Source: Periplaneta americana (Eukaryota > Arthropoda > Insecta > Blattodea > Blattidae). Taken from it: a stretch of DNA of 64,000 nucleotides. The translations under genes were made by a program, and so were the position numbers. The notes under the pieces were generated by a model. That model made no database searches, had not been told where the DNA came from, and worked only from the letters and a program-made list of their open reading frames with translations. Below, piece after piece: positions 17,636 to 50,801 of this stretch (the first letter of the stretch is position 1; every line of letters begins with the position of its first letter). The DNA lies in assembly GCF_040183065.1 (NCBI RefSeq), contig NC_091131.1, positions 103,603,830-103,667,829 of the forward strand. The letters run 5' to 3'.

Positions 17636-18110
17636 ATATATTATTATAATGTACCGAAGTACATATGATATTTCCATGCAGATATTCTGCGTCATCATAC
17701 GATGAAAGAGTAATGGAACGGAGAAAAATTCTCTTCGGCGCCGGGATTTGAACCCGGGTTTTCAGCTCTACGTGCTGACGCTTTATCCACTAAGCCACAC
17801 CGGATTCCACCCCGGCGTCGGAAGAATCGTCTCACTTCCGTCGGATCCCGGCCAATTAGTCACTCATTACGAGTGCACCTCAGCACATGTGTGGACTTCG
17901 GTCCTAGGTTCATAGATATCTATGACGTAGTGCAGAGGGCGGCCACTAGAGGGAACCCAAGAGTTGGAACTTAAAAGTGAGACGATTCTTCCGACGCCGG
18001 GGTGGAATCCGGTGTGGCTTAGTGGATAAAGCGTCAGCACGTAGAGCTGAAAACCCGGGTTCAAATCCCGGCGCCGGAGAGAATTTTTCTCCGTTCCATT
18101 ACTCTTTCAT
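17636..18110. mobile_element. Double-headed inverted tRNA-like SINE, 475 bp
   Basis: Two tRNA-like sequences face opposite ways within one insertion: minus strand at about 17739-17806 and plus strand at about 18009-18078. Each folds as a tRNA-like cloverleaf with a T arm CCGGG/TTCAAAT/CCCGG. Beyond each head the inverted similarity continues (ACGATTCTTCCGAC; AGAGAATTTTTCTCCGTTCC). The left, minus-strand half keeps a 3' tail with 'ATGTACTTCGGTACAT'; the right half stops at CTTTCATC. An 11-bp duplication flanks the pair, so it integrated as a unit. Confidence 0.85.
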
Positions 18111-23866: not shown

Positions 23867-24876
23867 TATAATATAATAAAATGTTTCAAGTTCAATCTAT
23901 AAGATTTATCTATTTTGCAAATGTTTATTGTTAAGAAACACGTAATCTAAACCTTGATCAAATTAAACATGTACATTGTAATATGCATTATGTAATTTGA
24001 TTTTCAAGTTTAGATAACGTTTGTATAATACTGTCTGATTGACATTAAGTATTTTACAATTCATTTTGTCTTCAGATAAATCTAATTTAATATAATAAAA
24101 TGTTTCAAGTTCATTCTATAAGATTTATCTATTTGCAAATGTTTATTGTTAAGAAACACGTAATCTAAATCTTGATCAAATTAAACATGTACATTGTAAT
24201 ATGCATTATGTAATTTGATTTTCAAGTTTAGATAACGTTTGTATAATACTGTCTGATTAACATTAAGTATTTTACAATTCATTTTGTCTTCAGATAAATC
24301 TAATTTAATATAATAAAATGTTTCAAGTTCAATCTATAAGATTTATCTATTTGCAAATGTTTATTGTTAAGAAACACGTAATCTAAATCTTGATCAAATT
24401 AAACATGTACATTGTAATATGCATTATGTAATTTGATTTTCAAGTTTAGATAACGTTTGTATAATACTGTCTGATTAACATTAAGTATTTTACAATTCAT
24501 TTTGTCTTCAGATAAATCTAATTTAATATAATAAAATGTTTCAAGTTCAATCTATAAGATTTATCTATTTGCAAATGTTTATTGTTAAGAAACACGTAAT
24601 CTAAATCTTGATCAAATTAAACATGTACATTGTAATATGCATTATGTAATTTGATTTTCAAGTTTAGATAACGTTTGTATAATACTGTCTGATTAACATT
24701 AAGTATTTTACAATTCATTTTGTCTTCAGATAAATCTAATTTAATATAATAAAATGTTTCAAGTTCAATCTATAAGATTTATCTATTTTGCAAAATAGAT
24801 AAATCTTATAGATTGAACTTGAAACATTTTATTACATTAAATTAGATTTATCTGAAGACAAAATGAATTGTAAAAT
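23867..24876. repeat. 218-bp tandem array ending in an inverted copy
   Basis: The word 'ATGTTTCAAGTTCA' starts units at 23881, 24100, 24318, 24536 and 24754, a period of 218-219 bp. Units are nearly identical. The fifth is cut at 'ATCTATTTTG' and followed at once by its inverted complement, forming a hairpin centred near 24791. The inverted part continues to 'AATTGTAAAATA'. Probable 11-bp target duplications (ACACAGATTTT) flank the whole, so array and hairpin seem to have arrived or grown within one mobile element. No coding capacity. Confidence 0.9.
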
Positions 24877-25523: not shown

Positions 25524-25572
25524 ACTTTTTTTTTCTTCCACCATATTAATAATATCAAAAGAAGTGTTTATA
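25524..25572 (+). repeat. Left part of a dispersed repeat interrupted by the mariner at 25573
   Basis: 'CTTCCACCATATTAATAATA' and following bases recur inverted at 36175-36262 and direct at 47225-47320. The sequence resumes at 26139 after the mariner insertion ('AATCTTGGCCACTCGACCGC'). Confidence 0.75.
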
Positions 25573-26136
25573 CGAGGCGCATCCAGAAAGTAAGTTTCCC
25601 GATTTTCCCCCCTTGAAAGTAAACGTAATTAGCCGTGTCAATTGCGCATGCGTAACAGATATATGACGTATCAATCATATGTCAGCCGGACAGGTCCCAC
25701 CTGGTACCAGTAGCATGGCAGCAGTGGCCCGAAATGGAAGCTCTTATTCCTTCTCCCGCCGCCTGCGAGGTTCGGTCGGTGATAAAGTTCTTTAATGCAC
25801 AAAGCATTGCGCCAATTGAAATTCATCGGCAGCTCTGTCAGGTCTATGGGCCGAACATCTCTCTCTCTCTCAAGAAATTCCTGTCCTCCTGTGAGCGTTT
25901 TGGCAACGACGAAGAGCTGAAGACGTCTGTCACACGCTGGTTCCATTCACAGGCGGCAGAGTTCTACGACAGAGGGATACAAAAGTTTATCCCACGATAC
26001 GACAATTGTCTCAATTCTGATGGTGGCTATGTTGAAAAATAGCTGAAACATTTCTGTACCTGTTGCCAATAAATGTTTTCCTGAAAGTGTGTTCTTTTTT
26101 TTTAAATAGGGAAACTTACTTTCTGGATGCGCCTCG
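25573..26136 (+). mobile_element. Mariner deletion derivative with open ORF
   Basis: Inverted ends CGAGGCGCATCCAGAAAG / CTTTCTGGATGCGCCTCG lie between TA dinucleotides (25571-25572, 26137-26138). These are long, clean mariner-type termini. At 564 bp the element is less than half of a full mariner (about 1.3 kb). It interrupts the dispersed repeat at 25524, so it is younger than that repeat. Confidence 0.9.
25734..26042 (+). CDS. Fused N- and C-terminal mariner transposase remnant, 102 aa
   Basis: Starting at the ATG at 25734, residues 1-41 ('VRSVIKFFNAQSIAPIEIHR') match the N-terminal helix-turn-helix region by which mariner transposases bind their inverted repeats. Residues about 49-102 ('QAAEFYDRGIQKFIPRYDNC', ending YVEK) match the extreme C-terminus. 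The catalytic DD(D/E) core between them is deleted, yet the frame stays open through the join. It cannot catalyse transposition. If translated it could bind termini and compete with a full transposase; that is inference. The stop lies about 95 bp from the right terminus, as in full-length elements. Confidence 0.85.
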   Translation: MEALIPSPAACEVRSVIKFFNAQSIAPIEIHRQLCQVYGPNISLSLKKFLSSCERFGNDEELKTSVTRWFHSQAAEFYDRGIQKFIPRYDNCLNSDGGYVEK

Positions 26137-26166
26137 TACAAATCTTGGCCACTCGACCGCAATTAC

Positions 26167-26172
26167 GAGGCC
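26167..26172. repeat. 6-bp target-site duplication (left) of palindromic element
   Basis: GAGGCC immediately before the left terminus AGTAGAGAAGG; identical to 35839-35844. The joined flanks (TTAC-GAGGCC-GTCCAGAAAG) would read as a continuous mariner-type terminus. Confidence 0.9.
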
Positions 26173-26223
26173 AGTAGAGAAGGTTTGCGCGTGACGTCAA
26201 AGCATGGCGGAGTCCCGGATATG

Positions 26224-26385
26224 GCGTGACCTTGAGTGACCTTGAGGTAGGTCACGTACGCGTAGGTCAGTGACCTTGAGGAAGGTCACGTGCGCGTAGG
26301 GGTAGGTCAGTGACCTTGAGGTAGGTCACGTACGCGTTGGTGTAGTTCAGTGACCTTGGGGTAGGTCATGGTCATTGGCCTTGAG
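26224..26385. promoter_or_regulatory. Subterminal ~40-bp repeats with nuclear-receptor-type sites (left)
   Basis: AGGTCAGTGACCT occurs exactly at 26264-26276 and 26304-26316, and as AGTTCAGTGACCT at 26344-26356, spaced 40 bp. This fits the inverted-repeat-1 consensus for ecdysone receptor/USP elements (PuGKTCANTGAMCPy). TGACCTTGA, the complement of the FTZ-F1 extended half-site TCAAGGTCA, occurs at 26227, 26237, 26271 and 26311. Each repeat also has CACGTACGCG or CACGTGCGCG. The pattern is seen directly; hormone control is inference. Binding sites for a replication or integration protein are the alternative. Confidence 0.65.
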
Positions 26386-26700
26386 CGAGCACGTACCCCG
26401 CGCCCGTATGCATGTCAATTAAGACATGTCGCGACATGAGGTAGCACGTACCTCACCGGACGCACGTTCCCCGCCGGAAGCGGACCACCCCGCCTGCATG
26501 CATGTCAATGATCAAAAAGACGTGTCAGAAACCACGTACCCCGCCGGAAGCCGACCCCCGCCTGCATGCATACCAATGCACAGGACGTACGTGGTGGGAG
26601 GCACGTACCCCGCAGGATGCCGACCCCTAGCCAACGACAGGAAGCAGAGACCTACCCATGCATGCTAATGCGTGCAGAACGACAGGTATGAACTTGTACC
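26386..26700. repeat. Second subterminal repeat block (left)
   Basis: Three to four degenerate copies of a ~50-80 bp unit containing CACGTACCCCGCCGGAAGC, GACCCC, CGCCTGCATGCAT and CAATG. It probably carries the promoter of gene 1. The inverse lies at 35311-35625. Confidence 0.75.
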
Positions 26701-26718
26701 GTACGTGATGTAGAGAAA

Positions 26719-27195
26719 ATGCGAATTTTGGGTATAAAAACGATTAATTTACCACAAACGAGCATCATTCTGAGGAATACCATGGATCACCTACCGACGT
26801 GCAAATGTGATTGCTTTGCTAGGAGGCAGCCATCGCCTCAAGAAATGCAGTGCGAGGACGGCTACACGGAGGGGCCACCACCGGACAAGATGTGTAACAT
26901 TAAAGTGGGCGATCTAGTGAAAGGGATGGAGTACCCGATTAAGCGACTTCGATTTGCTTACACGAAGTACGGGCGGAAGGTAACAGCCGACCTGAAGAAT
27001 GGCGAGTCGCTGTTCCTACCATCGAAATTTGATGGATTGACGTATACCGATGTGCAGCTAATGTCCAGGACACCGCACAGCCTATATTACTATGGGCGTC
27101 GGAAGACCATGGATAACGAAAGAGAGTACAATATGGTGGAAATTAACCCCTCCCCGATGGGCTGGATGCCAGCGGACTGGGCGCCGCACTACTAA
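26719..27195 (+). CDS. Gene 1 (left): small protein with KYGR...FLPSKF core, function unknown
   Basis: 158 codons from the first ATG; a second ATG at 26779 would give 138 residues and begins with a Cys cluster (CKCDC). A core of about residues 60-120 has 'RFAYTKYGRKVTADL', 'SLFLPSKF', 'LTYTDVQLM' and 'LYYYGRR'. The pattern of a strand-rich 'TKYG', an 'FLPxRF' and a following 'LYYxG' reminds me of small OB-fold-like proteins found beside other virus-derived genes in arthropod genomes, which suggests single-stranded-DNA binding. That is weak inference. It is the gene closest to the terminus and lies 50 bp before gene 2 on the same strand. Confidence 0.65.
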   Translation: MRILGIKTINLPQTSIILRNTMDHLPTCKCDCFARRQPSPQEMQCEDGYTEGPPPDKMCNIKVGDLVKGMEYPIKRLRFAYTKYGRKVTADLKNGESLFLPSKFDGLTYTDVQLMSRTPHSLYYYGRRKTMDNEREYNMVEINPSPMGWMPADWAPHY

Positions 27196-27245
27196 AAGGG
27201 AGAAGGGGAGCAACAAGAGCGGTTAGTACGTCAGTAGGAGGCAAC

Positions 27246-27824
27246 ATGGAGTCATCATACTTTTATATTGGGAACGCATTGTTTGCGAAGATAAAACTGG
27301 TAAACGAAGCGCAGATTGACTCTATCACGGTGGGTGGCACCTCAACAACAGTGAAGATAGTGCGCGATGTGGACTACCCTAGTGACCATATCAAGTTCGC
27401 GATTGTAATATACAATCCTACATTATCGAGATCGGTAGCCGTACACATGTCACGACAAGACGGACAGACGATGCGGATGCGACCGACGGGGCTAGAAAAG
27501 GAAGAGACTGTGTCGTCACTAGGCGAGCACGGCGATTTCGTTGTGCTACTACCAAGTTTTACCGGGGTTGATACAATTAAAGAAATATACGCGGAGTGCA
27601 ATCTATCGATCACAACGTATCGTCTAGACCTGGATGTGCTACACGTGCAGGCGCCGAACAGAACACAATGCGATGGTGTGAGAACCGTGGCAGCGGACAC
27701 TGGGGCACTACTGGTGGCAACAATGGGGGTCTCAACGCAAAATTACAAACACGTCCCATATATTCCTCGGAAGATGAGTACAGAACACAAGACAATCGTT
27801 AATTTTGCACTTGTAGAGAAGTGA
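27246..27824 (+). CDS. Gene 2 (left): beta-rich protein of unknown function, 192 aa
   Basis: An uninterrupted frame from ATG (27246) to TGA, preceded by AGGAGGCAAC. The sequence alternates hydrophobic and polar residues (IGNALFAKIKLVN, IKFAIVIYNP, GDFVVLLPSF, YRLDLDVLHVQAP), typical of an all-beta fold. No signal peptide, membrane segment or cysteine pattern. Position between gene 1 and the spliced gene 3, and lack of catalytic motifs, would fit a minor structural protein, but I do not recognise the family. The right-arm copy differs by one deleted base near 27732/34279 that changes the last ~30 residues. Confidence 0.65.
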   Translation: MESSYFYIGNALFAKIKLVNEAQIDSITVGGTSTTVKIVRDVDYPSDHIKFAIVIYNPTLSRSVAVHMSRQDGQTMRMRPTGLEKEETVSSLGEHGDFVVLLPSFTGVDTIKEIYAECNLSITTYRLDLDVLHVQAPNRTQCDGVRTVAADTGALLVATMGVSTQNYKHVPYIPRKMSTEHKTIVNFALVEK

Positions 27825-27865
27825 CGGTTACAGCGGATGTGGGGTCCACGTGCTCCATCCTCACA

Positions 27866-29064
27866 ATGGACCAGGGGGGAGATGAAGTCATCTGCAAATT
27901 GTATATAAACGGTCACCTATCAGACAGACCATCACCAGTTTTCACAAAGGCAGAATGGCTGTGCACGGTGAACATAAAGGGTATTATGTATCGTATTTTG
28001 TCTTCTAGTTGTGGAGTGAGCAAGACGATAGCATCTTGCGGGGGGTGCTCCAGGCGTGGGAGCAACATAGTGCAGAGTTCCACACCCGTCTCTGTGATGG
28101 GTCGAACCACACGATTGTGTGTCTCACCCCTGGGAGAGGGAGGCCGAGGCGACGACGTCGACGTGCTACCCGGGCTGCCCTGAATTTTACCGTTGCCTGG
28201 GCGAGGTACGTAATGATGATACATGGAGTGATGACATATATATGGTGCCGGCAATCAGTGAGCTAATGCATGTGGTGTCTGCTGTTACAGTACGTGGCGA
28301 GGTTTGGACAGCACCGCTGGGTGCTGTTCTGTGGGTCGGAGGCCACAGCAGCCCATCGCACGGCCTTCCACGCGGAGGAGTGCTACGGGTTGGTACACGT
28401 TGAGACGTGTTCTGACCCGAGGGAGGGCGGGTGTATGGAACAGCGAAGACCTTGTTCGTACACCTGCTTCACGTTCGCCAGGACGGCTCAAACGGTAAGC
28501 AGAAAGAACAACATTGTCTTAAAGGGACCGGATATGTATCACAGAGCGACGATGTATTGATGTACTGTATACATGTTTCAGTTCTTGGAGAACGTACTCG
28601 GTGCAAGGGTGAGGGACAGCCAGGCGCTGGACCTCTCGTGCGAGCCGGTCCCTGCAGCAGGCCTCCCACCGACCAATGACCTCGCCGCCCCCTCCACCTC
28701 CGGGATGCGACCCCTGGACGAGACACCGCCACGGCAGCCGACGTGGTGCAGGCTGCCGTCAGAGTCGGAGTCCAGGGTTCTCACCCCAACGCCGGACTAC
28801 AGCCATCCGTGGTCGCGGACGCCGTCGTCTATGCACATCGATTGGGACACGGCGTCCACGATCAGCGCACCGGCCTCGCCATCGCTGTGGGCTGCAGCGG
28901 ACCTGCCATCGTCCGGTGACGACGTTTTCACCTCTGGTGGAGAGGTGGAAGACGCATCGTCATCGGACGGCTTCGAATACTTCGTGCCGGATGACACCCC
29001 GTCCTCTGACGAGGGCGTGGTGTTGTCCGACGCTGACGACAGGTATTCGCTGCGTGAGGAGTAA
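27866..29064 (+). CDS. Gene 3 (left): spliced Cys-rich protein with acidic Ser/Asp C-terminus
   Basis: Three splice sites are clear: donor GAG/GTACGT at 28206, acceptor TTACAG at 28290, donor ACG/GTAAGC at 28495, acceptor TTTCAG at 28581. Exons 28291-28494 (68 codons) and 28582-29064 (161 codons incl. stop) are both phase 0. The first is rich in Cys and His (HAEECYGL, HVETC, CMEQ, CSYTC), perhaps a metal-binding module; the second ends in an acidic tail (VPDDTPSSDEG). Upstream, three frames overlap at 27866-28205. A further acceptor (TCTTCTAG, 28008) suggests alternative 5' exons, or there is a frame break. The start is unresolved. A polyadenylation signal AATAAA is at 29179. Confidence 0.6.
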
Positions 29065-29069
29065 ACTGT

Positions 29070-29101
<32 letters not shown>

Positions 29102-29338
29102 GTATACTTTGTAGTAAACTGTGGCGTGTGTGTGTGTGTGTGTGCGTAATGCAAATACACATATGTAAATACTTAATTAATAAATGTAGATGACTCCATG
29201 TATCAGTGTTTGGTATTGGAACCCTACAATCACCTGACCGGGGGGTGGGATCGTTTGCGTAGGGGGGAGCTATCCTGTACCTATATCCCGCACATGGGAG
29301 TGAGGAAATAAGACTATGGTATCACAAAAAAAGCATAT
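29065..29338. other. Convergent intergenic with GT repeats (left arm)
   Basis: Two GT runs separated by a duplicated TAGTAAACTGTGG. The first run is 8 bp longer than its mirror copy at about 32920-32942. Genes 3 and 4 converge here, each with its own AATAAA. Confidence 0.85.
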
Positions 29339-29921
29339 TTATTTTCCTGACATCCAATTGTACAGTACATATATATTCTGTAACGCACATTGAATATTCG
29401 CACGTCGACAATGGAAAAGGCAGCTGGCCTTTATCCCCACATGCTGTTTTAATGTCCTCAGCGGTGGGCAGCCACATGAATACAAATCAATGACATCACG
29501 TCCCAATATTGATTCCAAGTACGCCTTCTTCTCCTCTCCTTTGGTATACACTTTATCCACTCCTTGGGCGACCATATGCAGTATGCGTCGGAGTTCGGGG
29601 TATGGAATGCATCCACTGTCCCACTTGAGCCCGTGGAAGCTGGACTCGAGCCAGGATGCACTTCTCGACGGTGTGCAGTGTGAAGGTGGGCGGAATATGC
29701 AATGCACCATCTGGTAGTCATCCGTCACGGCAGCTAATTCTTTGCAGACAAAGTTCCCTGCAGTGGTGTGGAATCCCTGAACATCGAGTATAATGTAGGT
29801 TTCCTTGCGAATGAGAGCAATAGTTACGATATGGACAAACCTAGTATTTCGTCCACCTCTAAGTACGACCAATGCACATGAATGTGCGAACTAGTAACGT
29901 ATATCGATAGCCGACTTACAT
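29339..29921 (-). CDS. Gene 4 (left): DVQGF-type protein, possible nuclease, spliced start
   Basis: The main exon 29339-29840 encodes 166 residues, starting just upstream of 'YIILDVQGFH' and including 'KELAAVTDD', 'WLESSFHGLKWDSGCI', 'VDKVYTKGEEK' and 'GCPPLRTLK'. Proteins with the same ordered blocks (DVQGF, KEL, HGLxW, VYxKGxEK, CPxL) occur as uncharacterised proteins in many arthropod genomes. The spaced acidic and Lys residues suggest a nuclease-like fold, but this is inference. A GTAAGT...TAG intron (29841-29919) would join AT to G to create the start codon. The AATAAA overlaps the stop region. Confidence 0.6.
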
Positions 29922-29923
29922 GT

Positions 29924-30821
29924 TCACGCAACGTCTCGTACAATGCGGGAGAGCGGTGTATAGTCCACAACCTTCTCGTGCAGAATGAGGCAATATGCAT
30001 TAGTTTGAGCCGGTATATTTTCCGACTTTGTGAAATCAATGCGCACGTGGACGGAACCGACGTTCAGTTGGTCCTCTTGTTTGGAGCAGTCAATTACAAA
30101 GAGGGGGGCGGTGTCCTTGAACTGTGATATCTGAAGGAGAGGATAGCTTTCGCCTCCATAGTAGGAGGCCTTGGAATCTGGCGTAATGCTCATATAGCAT
30201 TGCGAACTTATCATTTTTAAAATCGAGATTGTAGTTGCTATAGGGAAACCGTTCTCCATTTAGGTACATCTTTAGGTCCGTGATGTTGCAATGGTCGAAT
30301 TTACTCGCGTCCTTAGTCACGCCGTTCCTGTCTGTCTGGAATCCCACAATTATAAATCTCGGCTTTGTCGCCTTAGGAGACGTGCCAACGTCCCAGGAAT
30401 GCGTAGTGGCCTGTGGGAGCGATGGGCGTTCGTATAGAGTCCAGGACCGAAACGGCACACGTATCGGTTTATCGCCCTCCAAGAGCTTATAGAACATGAG
30501 TTTTTCCGTATCCTCCACGGTCACGACGGGCATCCTCCACTCTACGCCCGTTATTTGTATTAGCCCGGGGTCCAGATCCGTACCGATGGTTGCGTTTTTT
30601 GTATTTTTGCTTCTGATTAGAATCAGCTCCTGTCTACATTTTAGTAGAACCTGCGTGAAATCCTCAGCGAAGCCTAGTAGCATCCGCAGGGGCACAACAG
30701 CACTGAACGCGTTATTGGTAACGATCGCGTTAGCGCCTTCAAGGTCCCACCCCGCATTCTGCAACCGTTTAGCTTCCATGATGTTAAGGGATGCATAACT
30801 CTTCATGAGGCTGGCGATACC
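29924..30821 (-). pseudogene. Gene 5 (left): capsid-like gene, 5'-truncated and frameshifted
   Basis: Mirror copy of the gene at 30890-32096 but lacking about its first 103 codons: homology ends at 30821, where the loop begins, and the open frame merely runs on into loop sequence. It carries the same frame change near 30170-30180 as the right copy. Differences from the right copy include K/S, D/Y and P/L replacements, so the arms are not identical. It cannot make a complete product. Confidence 0.8.
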
Positions 30822-31198
30822 GACACGCAAGTCAATAACAACGCCTAACCGCCAATTTCTCGAAGCACTTGAGTTCGCGGTAACCATACATGGATCCTCT
30901 CGCGATAACGGCACCGGAGCCCTCCGACAATAGAATAACGAAGGTGGAGGAATTTGTGTTTAAACCGTATAACAACACCGCACTGAACGAGAGCGATGAG
31001 ATCAGGATATCGGTTCAGACTGAGGATCTTCTCACGCTTCCGTCTAACAGCTGTCTGTACATTGAAGGTACATTTAAGAAGACTGCTGCTTCGAATGACA
31101 AGACGTCCGCGAAGCTAGTTAATAATGCCTTGGCATTTCTGTTCGATGAAATCCGACTAGACCTAAACGGCGTAAGGATCGATGATGTACGCAATGTA
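30822..31198. other. Single-copy loop of the palindrome
   Basis: 377 bp present once. It contains 68 bp of upstream sequence plus the first ~103 codons of the right-arm capsid-like gene. Inverse pairing ends sharply on both sides (…GATACC / GGTATC…) with no obvious repeat at the junction beyond a few bases. Confidence 0.9.
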
Positions 31199-32096
31199 GG
31201 TATCGCCAGCCTCATGAAGAATTATGCATCCCTTAACATCATGGAAGCTAAACGGTTGCAGAATGCGGGGTGGGACCTTGAAGGCGCTAACGCGATCGTT
31301 ACCAATAACGCGTTCAGTGCTGTTGTGCCCCTGCGGATGCTACTAGGCTTCGCTGAGGATTTCACGCAGGTTCTACTAAAATGTAGACAGGAGCTGATTC
31401 TAATCAGAAGCAAAAATACAAAAAACGCAACCATCGGTACGGATCTGGACCCCGGGCTAATACAAATAACGGGCGTAGAGTGGAGGATGCCCGTCGTGAC
31501 CGTGGAGGATACGGAAAAACTCATGTTCTATAAGCTCTTGGAGGGCGATAAACCGATACGTGTGCCGTTTCGGTCCTGGACTCTATACGAACGCCCATCG
31601 CTCCCCCAGGCCACTACGCATTCCTGGGACGTTGGCACGTCTCTTAAGGCGACAAAGCCGAGATTTATAATTGTGGGATTCCAGACCGACAAGAACGGCG
31701 TGACTAAGTACGCGAGTAAATTCGACCATTGCAACATCACGGACCTAAAGATGTACCTAAATGGAGAACGGTTTCCCTATAGCAACTACAATCTCGATTT
31801 TAAAAATGATAAGTTCGCAATGCTATATGAGCATTACGCCAGATTCCAAGGCCTCCTACTATGGAGGCGAAAGCTATCCTCTCCTTCAGATATCACAGTT
31901 CAAGGACACCGCCCCCCTCTTTGTAATTGACTGCTCCAAACAAGAGGACCAACTGAACGTCGGTTCCGTCCACGTGCGCATTGATTTCACAAAGTCGGAA
32001 AATATACCGGCTCAAACTAATGCATATTGCCTCATTCTGCACGAGAAGGTTGTGGACTATACACCGCTCTCCCGCATTGTACGAGACGTTGCGTGA
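30890..32096 (+). pseudogene. Gene 5 (right): double-jelly-roll major-capsid-like protein, frameshifted
   Basis: From the ATG at 30890 a 346-codon frame holds blocks such as 'DEIRISVQTEDLLTLPSNSC', 'NNALAFLFDEIRLDLNGV' and 'RFIIVGFQTDKNG'. Proteins with these blocks are common uncharacterised genes in arthropod genomes. The beta-rich layout with a repeated LNG...P motif is what I expect of a double-jelly-roll capsid subunit, which would build the virion shell. Near 31846-31850 the conserved reading passes to the +1 frame, which stays open to 32096 and encodes the expected C-terminal third (VIDCS, TNAYCLILH, PLSRIVR). So the gene is broken by one base, or read by +1 frameshifting. Gene 4 follows directly. 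Confidence 0.6.
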
Positions 32097-32098
32097 AC

Positions 32099-32681
32099 AT
32101 GTAAGTCGGCTATCGATATACGTTACTAGTTCGCACATTCATGTGCATTGGTCGTACTTAGAGGTGGACGAAATACTAGGTTTGTCCATATCGTAACTAT
32201 TGCTCTCATTCGCAAGGAAACCTACATTATACTCGATGTTCAGGGATTCCACACCACTGCAGGGAACTTTGTCTGCAAAGAATTAGCTGCCGTGACGGAT
32301 GACTACCAGATGGTGCATTGCATATTCCGCCCACCTTCACACTGCACACCGTCGAGAAGTGCATCCTGGCTCGAGTCCAGCTTCCACGGGCTCAAGTGGG
32401 ACAGTGGATGCATTCCATACCCCGAACTCCGACGCATACTGCATATGGTCGCCCAAGGAGTGGATAAAGTGTATACCAAAGGAGAGGAGAAGAAGGCGTA
32501 CTTGGAATCAATATTGGGACGTGATGTCATTGATTTGTATTCATGTGGCTGCCCACCGCTGAGGACATTAAAACAGCATGTGGGGATAAAGGCCAGCTGC
32601 CTTTTCCATTGTCGACGTGCGAATATTCAATGTGCGTTACAGAATATATATGTACTGTACAATTGGATGTCAGGAAAATAA
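32099..32681 (+). CDS. Gene 4 (right): DVQGF-type protein, possible nuclease, spliced start
   Basis: Mirror copy of 29339-29921 with the same residues. A consensus donor GTAAGT begins at 32101, three bases after the end of the capsid-like frame. An acceptor ACTAG ends at 32179, giving a 79-nt intron. Exon 32180-32681 then runs 166 codons to TAA, which overlaps AATAAA (32677-32682). This layout implies gene 4 is expressed from a transcript that includes, or is spliced from, the capsid-like gene's leader. The alternative in-frame start is a non-AUG codon at 32148. Confidence 0.6.
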
Positions 32682-32947
32682 ATATGCTTTTTTTGTGATA
32701 CCATAGTCTTATTTCCTCACTCCCATGTGCGGGATATAGGTACAGGATAGCTCCCCCCTACGCAAACGATCCCACCCCCCGGTCAGGTGATTGTAGGGTT
32801 CCAATACCAAACACTGATACATGGAGTCATCTACATTTATTAATTAAGTATTTACATATGTGTATTTGCATTACGCACACACACACACACACACGCCACA
32901 GTTTACTACAAAGTATACGACACACACACACACACACACACCACAGT
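32682..32947. other. Convergent intergenic with CA repeats (right arm)
   Basis: Mirror of 29065-29338, with shorter CA run. Confidence 0.85.
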
Positions 32948-34146
32948 TTACTCCTCACGCAGCGAATACCTGTCGTCAGCGTCGGACAACACCACGCCCT
33001 CGTCAGAGGACGGGGTGTCATCCGGCACGAAGTATTCGAAGCCGTCCGATGACGATGCGTCTTCCACCTCTCCACCAGAGGTGAAAACGTCGTCACCGGA
33101 CGATGGCAGGTCCGCTGCAGCCCACAGCGATGGCGAGGCCGGTGCGCTGATCGTGGACGCCGTGTCCCAATCGATGTGCATAGACGACGGCGTCCGCGAC
33201 CACGGATGGCTGTAGTCCGGCGTTGGGGTGAGAACCCTGGACTCCGACTCTGACGGCAGCCTGCACCACGTCGGCTGCCGTGGCGGTGTCTCGTCCAGGG
33301 GTCGCATCCCGGAGGTGGAGGGGGCGGCGAGGTCATTGGTCGGTGGGAGGCCTGCTGCAGGGACCGGCTCGCACGAGAGGTCCAGCGCCTGGCTGTCCCT
33401 CACCCTTGCACCGAGTACGTTCTCCAAGAACTGAAACATGTATACAGTACATCAATACATCGTCGCTCTGTGATACATATCCGGTCCCTTTAAGACAATG
33501 TTGTTCTTTCTGCTTACCGTTTGAGCCGTCCTGGCGAACGTGAAGCAGGTGTACGAACAAGGTCTTCGCTGTTCCATACACCCGCCCTCCCTCGGGTCAG
33601 AACACGTCTCAACGTGTACCAACCCGTAGCACTCCTCCGCGTGGAAGGCCGTGCGATGGGCTGCTGTGGCCTCCGACCCACAGAACAGCACCCAGCGGTG
33701 CTGTCCAAACCTCGCCACGTACTGTAACAGCAGACACCACATGCATTAGCTCACTGATTGCCGGCACCATATATATGTCATCACTCCATGTATCATCATT
33801 ACGTACCTCGCCCAGGCAACGGTAAAATTCAGGGCAGCCCGGGTAGCACGTCGACGTCGTCGCCTCGGCCTCCCTCTCCCAGGGGTGAGACACACAATCG
33901 TGTGGTTCGACCCATCACAGAGACGGGTGTGGAACTCTGCACTATGTTGCTCCCACGCCTGGAGCACCCCCCGCAAGATGCTATCGTCTTGCTCACTCCA
34001 CAACTAGAAGACAAAATACGATACATAATACCCTTTATGTTCACCGTGCACAGCCATTCTGCCTTTGTGAAAACTGGTGATGGTCTGTCTGATAGGTGAC
34101 CGTTCATATACAATTTGCAGATGACTTCATCTCCCCCCTGGTCCAT
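32948..34146 (-). CDS. Gene 3 (right): spliced Cys-rich/acidic protein
   Basis: Mirror copy of 27866-29064 with all splice signals preserved: exon 33518-33721 and terminal exon 32948-33430, with introns of 85 and 87 nt. Only a few residues differ, near the 5' end (for example I/M and S/P). The same unresolved triple-frame overlap occupies 33807-34146. Preservation of every splice site in both arms argues that the introns are real and used. Confidence 0.6.
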
Positions 34147-34187
34147 TGTGAGGATGGGGCACGTGGACCCCACATCCGCTGTAACCG

Positions 34188-34765
34188 TCACTTCTCTACA
34201 AGTGCAAAATTAACGATTGTCTTGTGTTCTGTACTCATCTTCCGAGGAATATATGGGACGTGTTTGTAATTTTGCGTTGAACCCCCATTGTTGCCACCAG
34301 TAGTGCCCCAGTGTCCGCTGCCACGGTTCTCACACCATCGCATTGTGTTCTGCTCGGCGCCTGCACGTGTAGCACATCCAGGTCTAGACGATACGTTGTG
34401 ATCGATAGATTGCACTCCGCGTATATTTCTTTAATTGTATCAACCCCGGTAAAACTTGGTAGTAGCACAACGAAATCGCCGTGCTCGCCTAGTGACGACA
34501 CAGTCTCTTCCTTTTCTAGCCCCGTCGGTCGCATCCGCATCGTCTGTCCGTCTTGTCGTGACATGTGTACGGCTACCGATCTCGATAATGTAGGATTGTA
34601 TATTACAATCGCGAACTTGATATGGTCACTAGGGTAGTCCACATCGCGCACTATCTTCACTGTTGTTGAGGTGCCACCCACCGTGATAGAGTCAATCTGC
34701 GCTTCGTTTACCAGTTTTATCTTCGCAAACAATGCGTTCCCAATATAAAAGTATGATGACTCCAT
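34188..34765 (-). pseudogene. Gene 2 (right): frameshifted copy
   Basis: Identical to the left copy over most of its length (one N/S change), but one base is missing near 34279. The frame leaves the conserved C-terminus and ends at 34235 after a 176-codon frame with a different tail; the original C-terminal frame continues to 34188. Either this copy is damaged or the left one has gained a base. The left one has the longer, cleaner frame, so I regard this as the damaged copy. Confidence 0.7.
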
Positions 34766-34815
34766 GTTGCCTCCTACTGACGTACTAACCGCTCTTGTTG
34801 CTCCCCTTCTCCCTT

Positions 34816-35292
34816 TTAGTAGTGCGGCGCCCAGTCCGCTGGCATCCAGCCCATCGGGGAGGGGTTAATTTCCACCATATTGTACTCTCTTTCGTTATCC
34901 ATGATCTTCCGACGCCCATAGTAATATAGGCTGTGCGGTGTCCTGGACATTAGCTGCACATCGGTATACGTCAATCCATCAAATTTCGATGGTAGGAACA
35001 GCGACTCGCCATTCTTCAGGTCGGCTGTTACCTTCCGCCCGTACTTCGTGTAAGCAAATCGAAGTCGCTTAATCGGGTACTCCATCCCTTTCACTAGATC
35101 GCCCACTTTAATGTTACACATCTTGTCCGGTGGTGGCACCTCCGTGTAGCCGTCCTCGCACTGCATTTCTTGAGGCGATGGCTGCCTCCTAGCAAAGCAA
35201 TCACATTTGCACGTCGGTAGGTGATCCATGGTATTCCTCAGAATGATGCTCGTTTGTGGTAAATTAATCGTTTTTATACCCAAAATTCGCAT
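34816..35292 (-). CDS. Gene 1 (right): small KYGR...FLPSKF protein
   Basis: Mirror copy of 26719-27195; two residue differences seen (G to V in the Pro-rich segment, T to I before MDN). The frame is intact at 158 codons, so gene 1 exists as two full-length, near-identical copies. Function as for the left copy: unknown, with a weak suggestion of nucleic-acid binding. Confidence 0.65.
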   Translation of the reverse strand: MRILGIKTINLPQTSIILRNTMDHLPTCKCDCFARRQPSPQEMQCEDGYTEVPPPDKMCNIKVGDLVKGMEYPIKRLRFAYTKYGRKVTADLKNGESLFLPSKFDGLTYTDVQLMSRTPHSLYYYGRRKIMDNEREYNMVEINPSPMGWMPADWAPHY

Positions 35293-35310
35293 TTTCTCTA
35301 CATCACGTAC

Positions 35311-35625
35311 GGTACAAGTTCATACCTGTCGTTCTGCACGCATTAGCATGCATGGGTAGGTCTCTGCTTCCTGTCGTTGGCTAGGGGTCGGCATCCTGCG
35401 GGGTACGTGCCTCCCACCACGTACGTCCTGTGCATTGGTATGCATGCAGGCGGGGGTCGGCTTCCGGCGGGGTACGTGGTTTCTGACACGTCTTATTGAT
35501 CATTGACATGCATGCAGGCGGGGTGGTCCGCTTCCGGCGGGGAACGTGCGTCCGGTGAGGTACGTGCTACCTCATGTCGCGACATGTCTTAATTGACATG
35601 CATACGGGCGCGGGGTACGTGCTCG
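35311..35625. repeat. Second subterminal repeat block (right)
   Basis: Inverse of 26386-26700. Confidence 0.75.
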
Positions 35626-35787
35626 CTCAAGGCCAATGACCATGACCTACCCCAAGGTCACTGAACTACACCAACGCGTACGTGACCTACCTCAAGGTCA
35701 CTGACCTACCCCTACGCGCACGTGACCTTCCTCAAGGTCACTGACCTACGCGTACGTGACCTACCTCAAGGTCACTCAAGGTCACGC
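35626..35787. promoter_or_regulatory. Subterminal repeats with nuclear-receptor-type sites (right)
   Basis: Inverse of 26224-26385. Perfect inverted-repeat-1 sites lie at 35735-35747 and 35695-35707 (AGGTCACTGACCT), and AGGTCACTGAACT at 35655-35667. Confidence 0.65.
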
Positions 35788-35838
35788 CATATCCGGGACT
35801 CCGCCATGCTTTGACGTCACGCGCAAACCTTCTCTACT

Positions 35839-35844
35839 GAGGCC
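35839..35844. repeat. 6-bp target-site duplication (right) of palindromic element
   Basis: GAGGCC, identical to 26167-26172. Confidence 0.9.
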
Positions 35845-36015
35845 GTCCAGAAAGTTATTTTCTCTGCGGCCGTTTATAGAAAAAAAGCACAATTGCATGG
35901 AAATATTTACTGAAACAGATACAGCAATTGTTGCGCTATTTGTCAACATATCCCCCACTGGAATTGAGACATTTGTCATACCGTGGGATCTATTTTTGTG
36001 TCGAAGTCAGTCGCC
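35845..36015 (-). pseudogene. Mariner 3' end forming the integration target
   Basis: Begins GTCCAGAAAGTTATTTTC, like the terminus of the mariner at 25573. On the minus strand about 35930-36010 corresponds to the mariner C-terminal IPRYDKCLN-type block. The same arrangement recurs at 47300-47470. The palindromic element therefore inserted at or next to a mariner terminus. Confidence 0.7.
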
Positions 36016-36174
36016 TCAGATCGGAACCAGCGTTTGACTGCGTCTGCACCTTCTCTGTCGATCATATAGTATGAGAAATGTCTCAATTCCAATTGATGTG
36101 TGTGTTCCAATAAATTTGTCCAATGAAATTATATTTTTTTTTTTCTGTTAACGACCTTAGGCGAACTTATTTTT

Positions 36175-36262
36175 TTACGGCTCTCGTAATTGCGGTCGAG
36201 TGACCAAAATTTGTATAAGCATTTCTTTTGACATTATTAACATGGTGGAAGAAAAAAAAAAC
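36175..36262 (-). repeat. Dispersed repeat, inverse of the left-flank copy
   Basis: Inverted and diverged copy of 25524-25572 plus 26139-26166. The palindrome's target was thus itself inside an element with inverted repeat ends. Confidence 0.75.
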
Positions 36263-47224: not shown

Positions 47225-47470
47225 ATTAATCTTCCTTCTTCCATCATATTAATAATGTCAAAAGAAGTGCTTACACAAATTTTGGCCACTCGAGCGCAAT
47301 TAAGAGGGCCGTAAAAGAATAAGTTTCCCTGGGGTCGTTTACAGAAAGAGAACAAAATTTCATGGAAAGTTTTATTGGAACATATAGCAATAGTTGAGTT
47401 ATTTTTCAACGTATTCACTACCAGAATTGAGACATTTGTCACTCAGTGGGATCAATTTTTGTATCCTTGT
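47225..47470. repeat. Dispersed repeat plus mariner 3' end
   Basis: Third copy of the arrangement flanking the palindrome: 'CTTCCATCATATTAATAATG', 'TTTTGGCCACTCGAGCGC', then AGAGGGCCGTAAAAG and a mariner C-terminus-like stretch on the minus strand. It shows what an uninterrupted version of the integration site looks like. Confidence 0.7.
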
Positions 47471-48039
47471 TTTTGTAGATGTCTGCCGTCTGGAATCGGA
47501 ACCAATGTGTCGGCACATGTCTTTGACATGAGTTGTTTCTGCGCGCTTCCAGGATTTCACAGGTCTCCAAATGTGAGACGGCTATACTGACATATGTGGT
47601 TTCTGCATGGAATGATAACCCATATCAACAGTCCATGAAACTCGAACTCATTTCGCCACAAATAGTGACATGTGCTGTTTCTGCAATCCCTGATTCAACT
47701 CATGTAGACCATATTTTGATATACATACGGAATTTAAACATCACTGATTCCGTCGTACAATTCTGCTTTTTGCTTTGGTTTTTACCTGTAACCTCGTCTA
47801 TTCTCTACATTTCTGTAGGTATATAGATCACATTCCGGAGTTTACAATAGATTTAAAAACTTCCCATTGTCATTTGCACATTTTTCCTCTCCTCCCCTCG
47901 AAAAGTTTTAGAATACTTTCTCTCCTCTGACGTGAAATTTTAAATAACAATTTACACTAAATTTTTAAGTGAGTACCTAGCACAGGTACTTTTTCCAAAA
48001 TATTATAATAAATTTGTAAACATATTAGTTAATCGTAAA

Positions 48040-48059
48040 TTTTTCTTTTTCATTTCAGA
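48040..48059 (+). promoter_or_regulatory. Splice acceptor before the TRPA coding exon
   Basis: A pyrimidine tract with TTTCATTTCAG ends at 48058, two bases before the start ATG. A 5'-untranslated exon must lie upstream; I could not locate it. Confidence 0.8.
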
Positions 48060-50801
48060 ATGATGCCAAGCAACAACAAAGAAAATAGTTACCAACAAAT
48101 TCTACTGAAACATCTCGAAGATAAGGATATTAAATCCTTCGCTCACGTCCTGGAAAGAAGAAATATTTATGACATTGACCCGAACTTTGAATACGGAGAT
48201 CCTCATTTCAAGAACTGCCTCTCAATAGCTGCACAAAAAGGTCTTGTTGAATTTGTAAATATCTTGCTGCAAAATGGAGCACAACCTAATGAAATATGCA
48301 AATATCACGACGGCAATGCTGCTATTCACTTTGCTGCGAAAGAAGGAAGACTTGATGTTTTGAAGTTATTAGTTAAATATTCCAATATAAATGCTGTTAA
48401 TCGACAAGGAAATACTGCTTTACATATTGCAGCTCATAAGTCGGAAGATTGTTTCTCTTACCTTCTTACACTACCAGAAATAAGAATCAGTCAAAGAAAC
48501 CTGCAACGTCAGACTGCAACGAAGATAGCCGTCCGAAACTGTAGCAAAGAAACTTTAGCAAACTTAGTCAATCGATCTGATCTTAGCTCAGAAGATAAAA
48601 TCGAGATCATAAATAAATACCCTGATCTAAGAAATGAGTTAACTGACACAGACACTACAGCTTCATACACACATCCAGAAGCATACCTGGATCTCTGCGG
48701 TTCCGATAATTATATCGAAGAGTTTAAAAGTAATTTTAATCAACTGGATGATGACATGAAGAAAGAGTTCGTCAATAAAACTGACTTTGTGGGAACTTTG
48801 CTGCAAATAGCTTGTGAAAAAGGTCTTATCGATATTGTTAAGCTTCTAGTTAAATGTGGAGCAGAAGTAAATACAGTGGGAAAGCACACAGTAAGACCCC
48901 CAGTACATTTGGCATGTTATTTTGGTAAACATGATGTTCTTCGTCATCTAGTTGAAAACAGTGGCGTAAAAAACAGCATTGTAGAGGGACAAAACTTACT
49001 CCATGCTGTTCTTCAAGGCCTAAGTACAAGAAGAAAAGATGAAAACCAATATCGCTTGTGCTTTGACTATTTGCTGCAGAATCTTGAATGCTTAGAAATT
49101 CCCATAAATCAAGGTGAAAATTCTGGGCATACGGCACTTCATTTCGCTGTCCAAGAAAAGAATACATATTACACAAAAGCTTTGCTTGCCCGGGGAGCTT
49201 ACATAGGAGCGCTCAATGAATTTGGCATCTCTCCCCTGAATGATATGGAGCCTGCAATACTGGAAGATTCACTGGATGACTGCATAGAATATGAAAAAGA
49301 AAGTAAAGGCAACGAACATCACATAAAAGTGAATTTTAGTATTCTGAAACCATATGTTAACAGTGACTCAAGTGAGCAAAATAGTGACGAAGAATTAGGA
49401 AACGCAGAACGTGAAACGTTACCAGAAATGTATCCCTTGTATTACATCAGTCAGTCATACAAATTAGGACATCTTCTGAAACATCCTGTTCTGCTCTTAT
49501 TTCTCCATCTTAAATGGAATCGAATATGCTTGGTATTCTATTTAAACATTTTATACTACTTAATATTCGTCGTTCTCTTAACAGTAGACATTCTTAACGA
49601 TCACAGCCTCTGCAGTACATGTGAAGAAAACAGCTGTAACTCTGAAAGTTCTCTATACAAACTCTCTGGAATTAGATTTGTAATATTTGTTCTGTTCCTT
49701 ATACTCATAATAAGGGAGACTGTCCAATTCTTCATGGCACCACAGAGAAGAACTTTCTTTCTTAACTTGGAAAATTGGTTGGAACTAGGTATCATTGTTA
49801 CCATAAGTTTAATAATATCTGGGCACTGCACAAAATTAACAGTTGCAATATTGCTGCTTCTGGCATGGGCTGAAGTTATTCTTCAATTTGGCTGTATATA
49901 TACCTTAGCAATCTACAATGAAATGATGAAAAGGGTCACATTGAACTACATGAAATTTCTAGCATGGTATGGACCACTTATCATTGCATTTACCTTCAGT
50001 TTTTTTGTTCTTTATCACAATGAAACTCCAAATGAAGGACAGAAAGAATTTATGTCTTCCCTTCAAAACTGCAGCAATTCTTCAGGGGAGAATGAAGTGG
50101 ATTTCTACAGTTACATACCACTAACTCTGGTCAAAACAGTTGTTATGATGATCGGAGAATTTGATGCATCTAGCATGTCGTTCAATAATGGGGGTTATTT
50201 TATTTTCTTGCTTTTCGTGTTCGTGATGACAATTGTGCTGGTCAATCTTCTCAATGGTCTGGCTGTTAGCGACACTCAAGCCATTAGGGATAACGCTGAA
50301 CTTGTCACATATAGGTCAAAGGTCAAACTGGTACACCGTTTCGAGAGTGTCATTGCCTGCCCTCTCGTCAGCTCTTTCTCTAAAATTTCGTCTTGCTGCT
50401 CTTGTAGTTACAAGCTAATTGGAGTCATTCCCTGTTCGTGGAGGGAGAGAATATTGAAACGAATTTGTTTGTTCCCTGATGTGCTAGCAGAAGACAGTCT
50501 CAGCATTATCATTAACCATGGAGTACGTTACATTGATCGACAGTTGAAGACAGAAGAAATAGAATTTAGACCTGACACAAGTTTATCGATTGGAAAGTTC
50601 AGAATGGGATTCGAACTTAACCGGAAAGTGATAGAATTAATCAAGGACATTTTAGATAGAAAAGTGGAGACTCAGGATTATAAAGACAAGGAACTTTTAG
50701 ATAGGATATCTAAAATAGAATATACTCTACAACAAACCGTAACATTGTTGGAGCAAGTGATACAAAAAACTAGTAATTTTAAAGAAATTAATGAAAGTTG
50801 A
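48060..50801 (+). CDS. Painless-like TRPA cation channel, 913 aa
   Basis: A sensory cation channel of the plasma membrane. Ankyrin-type repeats lie at about residues 50-140 (LSIAAQKGLVEFVNILLQNG, AAIHFAAKEGRLDVLKLLVK, NTALHIAAHK) and 245-385 (LLQIACEKGLIDIVKLLVKC, PPVHLACYFGKHDVLRHLVE, GHTALHFAVQ). Hydrophobic segments S1-S6 occupy about 488-735. A pore helix reads 'LVKTVVMMIGEFD' (about 690-702), S6 'LFVFVMTIVLVNLLNGLAVSD' is followed by a TRP-box-like region. A C-terminal helix (about 870-905) may form a coiled coil. Length and layout match Drosophila Painless (thermal/mechanical nociception). The second ATG at 48063 is equally possible. AATAAA at 50843. Insects can have several such paralogues, so orthology is not claimed. 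Confidence 0.88.
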   Translation: MMPSNNKENSYQQILLKHLEDKDIKSFAHVLERRNIYDIDPNFEYGDPHFKNCLSIAAQKGLVEFVNILLQNGAQPNEICKYHDGNAAIHFAAKEGRLDVLKLLVKYSNINAVNRQGNTALHIAAHKSEDCFSYLLTLPEIRISQRNLQRQTATKIAVRNCSKETLANLVNRSDLSSEDKIEIINKYPDLRNELTDTDTTASYTHPEAYLDLCGSDNYIEEFKSNFNQLDDDMKKEFVNKTDFVGTLLQIACEKGLIDIVKLLVKCGAEVNTVGKHTVRPPVHLACYFGKHDVLRHLVENSGVKNSIVEGQNLLHAVLQGLSTRRKDENQYRLCFDYLLQNLECLEIPINQGENSGHTALHFAVQEKNTYYTKALLARGAYIGALNEFGISPLNDMEPAILEDSLDDCIEYEKESKGNEHHIKVNFSILKPYVNSDSSEQNSDEELGNAERETLPEMYPLYYISQSYKLGHLLKHPVLLLFLHLKWNRICLVFYLNILYYLIFVVLLTVDILNDHSLCSTCEENSCNSESSLYKLSGIRFVIFVLFLILIIRETVQFFMAPQRRTFFLNLENWLELGIIVTISLIISGHCTKLTVAILLLLAWAEVILQFGCIYTLAIYNEMMKRVTLNYMKFLAWYGPLIIAFTFSFFVLYHNETPNEGQKEFMSSLQNCSNSSGENEVDFYSYIPLTLVKTVVMMIGEFDASSMSFNNGGYFIFLLFVFVMTIVLVNLLNGLAVSDTQAIRDNAELVTYRSKVKLVHRFESVIACPLVSSFSKISSCCSCSYKLIGVIPCSWRERILKRICLFPDVLAEDSLSIIINHGVRYIDRQLKTEEIEFRPDTSLSIGKFRMGFELNRKVIELIKDILDRKVETQDYKDKELLDRISKIEYTLQQTVTLLEQVIQKTSNFKEINES

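Follow-up and report, generated by a model that had tools for sequence, protein, structure and literature searches.

A palindromic, Polinton-like element with perfect target duplications in the genome of Periplaneta americana

To our knowledge, the replication of animal Polintons (also called Mavericks) has been inferred mainly from their gene content. Symmetric adenovirus recombinants and the palindromic linear plasmids of yeast are protein-primed linear genomes in which one end is duplicated in mirror image, and neither are integrated transposons. Adeno-associated virus (AAV) forms defective interfering particles with self-complementary snap-back genomes, which derive from either half, are symmetric or carry an unpaired loop, and replicate when Rep and helper functions are given (PMC8235507). 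Vertebrate Mavericks measure 12.7-24.6 kb and have (AGT)2 or (AG)3 end motifs, 6-bp duplications and inverted repeats of 46-1,447 bp, their virions not having been seen so far (PMC8097293). Adintoviruses are defined by, among other features, an integrase with a C-terminal chromodomain (PMC11071296). In this study we analysed a 64,000-bp stretch of Periplaneta americana DNA (NC_091131.1, positions 103,603,830 to 103,667,829), here called the window, which holds a palindromic virus-like element of 9,666 bp at 26173-35838. This element is probably a defective copy-back genome of a Polinton/adintovirus, integrated by enzymes supplied in trans.

The element resembles Polintons in its 6-bp duplication, its (AGT)2/(AG)3-like terminal motif and its double jelly-roll (DJR) capsid protein. 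Two longer relatives in the same genome, C6 and C7, have an integrase, a packaging ATPase, a terminal inverted repeat and a target duplication, and C7 has a match to part of a PolB profile. Unlike a Polinton, the window element has no detected polymerase or integrase, and its inverted repeats are the whole 4.65-kb arms, outside the range given above for vertebrate Mavericks (PMC8097293). Its capsid search also returned a hexon named for an insect adintovirus, and the C6 integrase has a weak chromodomain match; compared with adintoviruses, however, the element is defective and palindromic. The mirrored end and the asymmetric loop recall AAV snap-back genomes, but AAV belongs to another virus group and its forms are packaged molecules, whereas the palindromes described here are integrated and flanked by target duplications. 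Palindromic Polintons were not described in any of the titles and abstract starts covered by a limited literature search without most subscription papers, and words beginning with "palindrom" were absent from the main texts of PMC11071296, PMC8363768, PMC12220804, PMC11071308 and PMC10120064.

Structure and target site of the palindrome

Self-comparison of the window gave three gap-free inverted blocks, 26172-27730/34281-35839, 27726-29092/32920-34286 and 29079-30825/31195-32941, corresponding to two inverted arms of about 4.65 kb around a loop. When the arms were aligned with each other over 4,644 positions, 13 substitutions (0.28%) and two gaps totalling 9 bases were found, one of 1 bp and the other of 8 bp in a microsatellite. 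The ends of the element were AGTAGAGAAGG, in agreement with the (AGT)2 Maverick motif at five of six positions on both sides, and the longer end reading AGTAGAGAAGGT was identical at both termini. A perfect GAGGCC duplication bordered the element. The similarity of the arms ceased at the element ends, where the left and right flanks were dissimilar, and the flanks joined without the element aligned through the junction to an uninterrupted relative at 47275-47465 (78%, E 8e-41). The palindrome was confirmed as real. The G+C content was 0.48-0.53 in 2-kb blocks across the element, compared to 0.28-0.41 in the rest of the window. Folding of one element end as DNA (z -2.4) added nothing.

These results agreed with an initial annotation made from the letters of the window, which had described inverted arms with shared ends and perfect GAGGCC duplications. 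Its view of a single integrated virus-like unit with a Polinton-type duplication was also upheld, as one matching pair encloses the whole. The loop, which it had put at 377 bp, measured 369 bp.

At the insertion site (window 25526-26172 and 35845-36260), old repeats are nested in one another, some of them hairpins and others mariner-like as judged by eye. There are inverted flank matches, and related copies lie at 47259-47523.

Gene content, fuller relatives and the fold-back junction

The sole identifiable gene in the palindrome encodes a DJR major capsid protein (PF21738 in Pfam, E 1.8e-78), and a second capsid piece matched the same family (E 3e-21). The gene starts in the loop and the right arm holds its remainder, while the left arm begins only at about codon 102; the frame is lost near codon 322 in both arms. 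A search of the protein collection with the capsid gave 978 matches, and the best 120 of these included ants, beetles, a soldier fly and phylloxera as well as P0119, a hexon named for an insect adintovirus. The predicted structure of the relative P0002 had a mean predicted local distance difference test (pLDDT) score of 81.8 and matched capsid chains of iridovirus, PBCV-1, Sputnik, mavirus and PRD1 (217 matches at E <= 0.001).

Five virus-like genes had initially been assigned to each arm. The capsid gene stands, although broken, whereas the other open reading frames (ORFs) tested had no significant match: this was the case in Pfam for six of the eight ORFs searched (all except the two capsid pieces) and in PHROGs for the four ORFs searched out of five besides the capsid. 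ORF1 and a 183-amino-acid (aa) frame, which is the stop-to-stop frame of the ORF at 32310..32681, had one match each in the protein collection, and the latter frame matched P. americana protein P0122 at 97% over 154 residues. The single-sequence structure model of ORF2 was poor (pLDDT 38). Scans of viral contigs with the capsid ORF, ORF1 and alignment A1 yielded no relatives. The initially reported absence of a Polinton polymerase and integrase was reproduced, as no PolB or rve integrase match was found among the eight ORFs tested against Pfam, of which the capsid ORFs were the largest, and none of the genome integrase matches listed lay in the element.

The initial annotation had proposed to look for full-length relatives with integrase and polymerase in the same genome, and longer relatives were found when the window's own 3.23-Gb assembly was searched. 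A 1-kb outer-arm query gave 52 matches; besides the two arms, eight places spanned the whole query, six at 94-96% and two at 82-84%, and three of the six close places had an opposite match of ~260 bp at a distance of 12.7, 14.3 or 21.6 kb. Among the three longer relatives read at both ends, C6 (90799844-90812605) and C7 (101839851-101861429) had AGTAGAGAAGG ends, repeats of ~273 bp and perfect 6-bp duplications, ACTCGG and ACAACC respectively, and the decayed C10 relative had TACTTC/TACTTG, matching at 5/6. In C6 and C7, of which 18 ORFs in all were tested against Pfam, the other half encoded an rve integrase (PF00665, E 2e-11 and 4e-12), a Pox_A32-type packaging ATPase and a phospholipase A2-like domain. 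C7 also matched DNA_pol_B_2 over part of the profile (PF03175, E 1e-16). No PolB match was obtained among the C6 ORFs given to Pfam, and as regards the N-terminal OTU-like domain of adintovirus PolB, the ORFs adjoining PolB had no match at E 0.1 in Pfam. Against the chromodomain PF00385, the C6 integrase reached 20.2 bits, a weak match below the cut-off of 25.1. The genome search with the integrase gave 151 matches, with 150 of 1,613 candidates scored; among the best 72 of 151, at identities of at least 37%, no opposite-strand pairs were seen when the table was read by eye and none lay in palindromes. Judged from these sequences, the palindrome is a derivative of a Polinton/adintovirus family present in the same genome.

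A 601-bp query over the fold-back gave 14 matches from seven candidates, and the junction was spanned only in the window. In all five relatives holding both sides (C6, C7, C9, C10 and C16), query positions 1-200 and 196-601 matched one capsid gene on opposite strands and the loop was contiguous with right-arm sequence; a C16 fragment matched only 1-200 and 553-601. The opposite-strand matches show that the loop and the right arm are one intact parental half, which begins 64-69 bp upstream of the capsid gene and extends as far as the end. The left arm is a mirror copy of this half, starting ~370 bp further in, with the two segments overlapping by 5 nt. With fuller relatives in the genome and a junction private to this locus, the initial suggestion of a separate layout for the gene set had to be given up.

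Twelve of the 13 arm differences were private to one arm (seven to the left, five to the right) and one was polymorphic among the relatives, several of the loci compared being pieces of one copy. Since these 12 differences occur in one arm only, the arms most likely started as copies of one template and would have diverged after the duplication.

Other arrangements of the family were seen. C16 49004557-49020961 is a head-to-tail array of capsid-side half units of the window's family (49004557-49008207, 49008205-49011555 and 49011553-49015918), in which two unit joints share 3 nt and a new end at 49015919 is joined straight to capsid codon ~97; this break lies 17 bp from the window fold point (window 31178 vs 31195). 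Further family ends were an opposite pair 24.9 kb apart at C6 76100460-76125345 and an array of tandem ends at C12 46327387-46330855.

Recurrence and proposed origin of the palindromes

The capsid gave 84 genome matches, a lower bound, which were grouped into 60 loci with a 20-kb cut. Opposite-strand capsid matches were present at three of the 60, and all three were palindromes with perfect 6-bp duplications. Besides the window element, these were a C4 palindrome at 129659258-129667487 with arms of 2,841 and 2,847 bp, 8 substitutions, a loop of 2,542 bp, AGTAGAATACAAATG ends and AGTGGC on either side, and a C1 palindrome at 115596188-115606447 with arms of 4,836 and 4,872 bp, 86 substitutions, 10 gaps, a loop of 552 bp, AGTAGTATTGGA ends and GTCAGC on either side. 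The latter two, with a core 97% alike and outer arms 87% alike, belong to one lineage apart from the window's and have different fold points despite this, the three capsid palindromes representing two lineages and three end sequences. The loop of this C4 palindrome was colinear with relatives (96%) up to 6 bp from the junction. Colinearity with relatives was also seen in C1 for the inner arm and for loop positions 111-552, and no match was found for the first 110 bp of the loop. No microhomology was evident by eye at either junction.

A fourth, older palindrome, C4 69933747-69937665, belongs to the window's own family and doubles its polymerase-side end. The two arms are 87% alike and match C7 inward from the polymerase end at 83-87%; it has a parental loop of ~1.4 kb, a nested insertion and a duplication matching at 5/6 (CACTTG/CACCTG). 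The number of palindromes is a lower bound, above all for polymerase-side ones. As a control, 10 other capsid loci were inspected, and none had long inverted arms within 6 kb either side of the capsid gene; one had two inverted matches of ~150 bp (74-86%) and one a 0.6-kb hairpin (76%) downstream.

The points at which the C1 palindrome and the C4 palindrome of the same lineage depart from the parental sequence lie ~2.07-2.12 kb upstream of the capsid gene and no more than ~50 bp apart (L027 near 7641, L029 near 8135), perhaps at a fragile spot. The arm differences in C1 were patchy: only 0-1 per 500 bp were counted at 1.5-2.5 kb, compared with 15-18 per 500 bp across the outer 1 kb, as if parts had been homogenised.

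In the copy-back origin that we propose by analogy with the AAV snap-back genomes, a strand growing inward from the capsid-side end during extrachromosomal linear replication would pass the capsid gene and lose its template 64-69 bp upstream of it. The strand would pair anew ~370 bp further back, where a 5-nt match lies within the capsid gene, and copy its own earlier product back to the starting end, so that both termini of the resulting palindrome carry the same end sequence. Such a molecule would keep the presumed replication and integration signals and lose the genes of the other half. The polymerase and integrase of a fuller relative would then act in trans to make the duplex and insert it at GAGGCC; several such relatives are present in the genome. 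The replicative step would thus precede integration. The asymmetric loop, the one contiguous and one truncated gene copy at the fold, the identical complete ends, the little or no microhomology, the doubling of either end, the capsid-side one in three cases and the polymerase-side one in a fourth, and the loss of the other-half genes fit this course of events. We favour a replicative account because four loci, two lineages and both ends need no special coincidence under it, which is a judgement and not a test.

Several points weigh against a copy-back origin. No extrachromosomal or packaged palindrome was observed, and no second copy of the window palindrome was found in the assembly, which thus gives no sign of continued propagation. 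The capsid frame loss common to both arms is not shared by four relatives, whose frames are open over 403 residues, indicating that the parent was already defective or that conversion has occurred. At the capsid sites, the arm-private states rest on just three or four distinct relatives. Seven of the 13 arm differences fall within the innermost ~515 bp (scan P 0.009), which is unexpected under uniform mutation; arm-to-arm conversion and a local hot spot are the only explanations that we can offer. The capsid end is retained in three of the four palindromes and the polymerase end in just one. Finally, the end-repeat alignment was unable to separate polymerase-side from capsid-side ends, and since the outer repeats are not diagnostic, a terminal-repeat rearrangement in an integrated provirus would leave the same sequence.

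In such a rearrangement after integration, a break near the polymerase-side repeat of a full-length provirus would be repaired through invasion of the capsid-side repeat, followed by inward copying, and the copied tract would be joined close to the capsid gene and take the place of the polymerase/integrase half. Both outer target duplications would be preserved, with the ~273-bp repeats as homology, and the clustered differences in the window together with the patchy ones in C1 hint at arm-to-arm conversion. The event must, however, have taken place at each of four loci from two lineages and have involved both ends, and the 10 control loci contained no intermediates, although this is weak evidence; we regard it as possible, though unlikely. 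A stable lineage of palindromic satellite elements propagating as palindromes with a helper appears improbable: the ends, target duplications and recurrence are consistent with mobilisation in trans, but the window junction is unique in the assembly and the four palindromes have different fold points.

Large palindromes are generally known as a class of assembly artefact. A fold-back of this kind is very unlikely here, and we give it next to no credence, because the arms do not extend beyond the element ends, where the flanks become unlike each other; moreover, the duplications match, the arms differ at 13 positions, a related target without the insertion exists, and three further palindromes have matching duplications, one of them at 5/6. 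Two independent inverted insertions followed by an internal deletion, for which only the head-to-head arrangement speaks, would have left unmatched duplications and are contradicted by outer ones that match perfectly at three loci, and almost certainly did not take place. The initial annotation had named a fold-back, or arms inserted independently with their own duplications, as what would overturn it; the finding that the arms do not enter the flanks and that there is one pair of duplications, not two, answers this in part.

Features of the window and implications

The features of the element are listed in Table 1.

Table 1. Coordinates of the palindromic element, its parts and related features in the window
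Feature	Position	Strand	Basis
Left 6-bp target duplication, GAGGCC	26167..26172	.	flank comparison
Right 6-bp target duplication, GAGGCC	35839..35844	.	flank comparison
Whole palindromic element, 9,666 bp	26173..35838	.	
Left arm	26173..30825	+	
Right arm, inverted copy	31195..35838	-	
Loop: 64 bp upstream of the capsid gene and its first ~102 codons	30826..31194	+	
Fold-back junction, 5-nt overlap of parental segments, unique in the assembly	30821..30825	.	
Left counterpart of the ~273-bp terminal inverted repeat in longer relatives	26173..26445	+	
Right terminal-repeat-equivalent stretch, identical to the left	35566..35838	-	
Subterminal tandem repeats, ~40-bp unit	26235..26368	+	
Subterminal tandem repeats, mirror copy	35643..35776	-	
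ORF1, 158 aa, left arm, function not assigned by match	26719..27195	+	
ORF1, right arm	34816..35292	-	
ORF2, 192 aa, left arm, function not assigned by match	27246..27824	+	
ORF2, right arm, 176 aa owing to a 1-bp difference	34235..34765	-	
163-aa ORF, left arm	28573..29064	+	
163-aa ORF, right arm	32948..33439	-	
123-aa ORF, left arm	29339..29710	-	
123-aa ORF, right arm	32310..32681	+	
Major capsid protein ORF (DJR, PF21738), frame lost near codon 322	30890..31930	+	
ORF in which the capsid remainder after the frame loss is read	31761-32096	+	
Left-arm capsid gene without the first ~102 codons, same frame loss	30090..30825	-	
Related copy of the target sequence without insertion	47275..47465	.	

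Elsewhere in the window, a 218-bp tandem repeat with 4.2 copies (99% matches) was found at 23869-24794, and an uninterrupted 920-aa frame at 48039-50801 looked by eye like an ankyrin-repeat TRP channel. Two predicted tRNA-Tyr genes, 17733-17804 and 18008-18079, lie on opposite strands ~200 bp apart.

The palindromes at the four loci, which have intact ends and matching duplications, are traces of the kind expected if a linear genome replicates by strand displacement. They suggest that Polintons throw off defective copies, like ordinary viruses, and that the lack of its own integrase need not prevent a Polinton from being inserted. The existence of free linear Polinton DNA in P. americana becomes testable, as does the possibility that intact Polintons suffer interference from defective ones or that the latter feed into silencing by small RNAs. 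It is a speculative and rather unlikely extension that animal Polintons form defective copy-back genomes which compete with intact ones for polymerase and integrase in the manner of defective interfering genomes, and that long hairpin RNAs of the integrated palindromes, provided that these are transcribed, silence the intact family. If this were true, the palindromes would combine a genomic fossil record of interference with a heritable defence.

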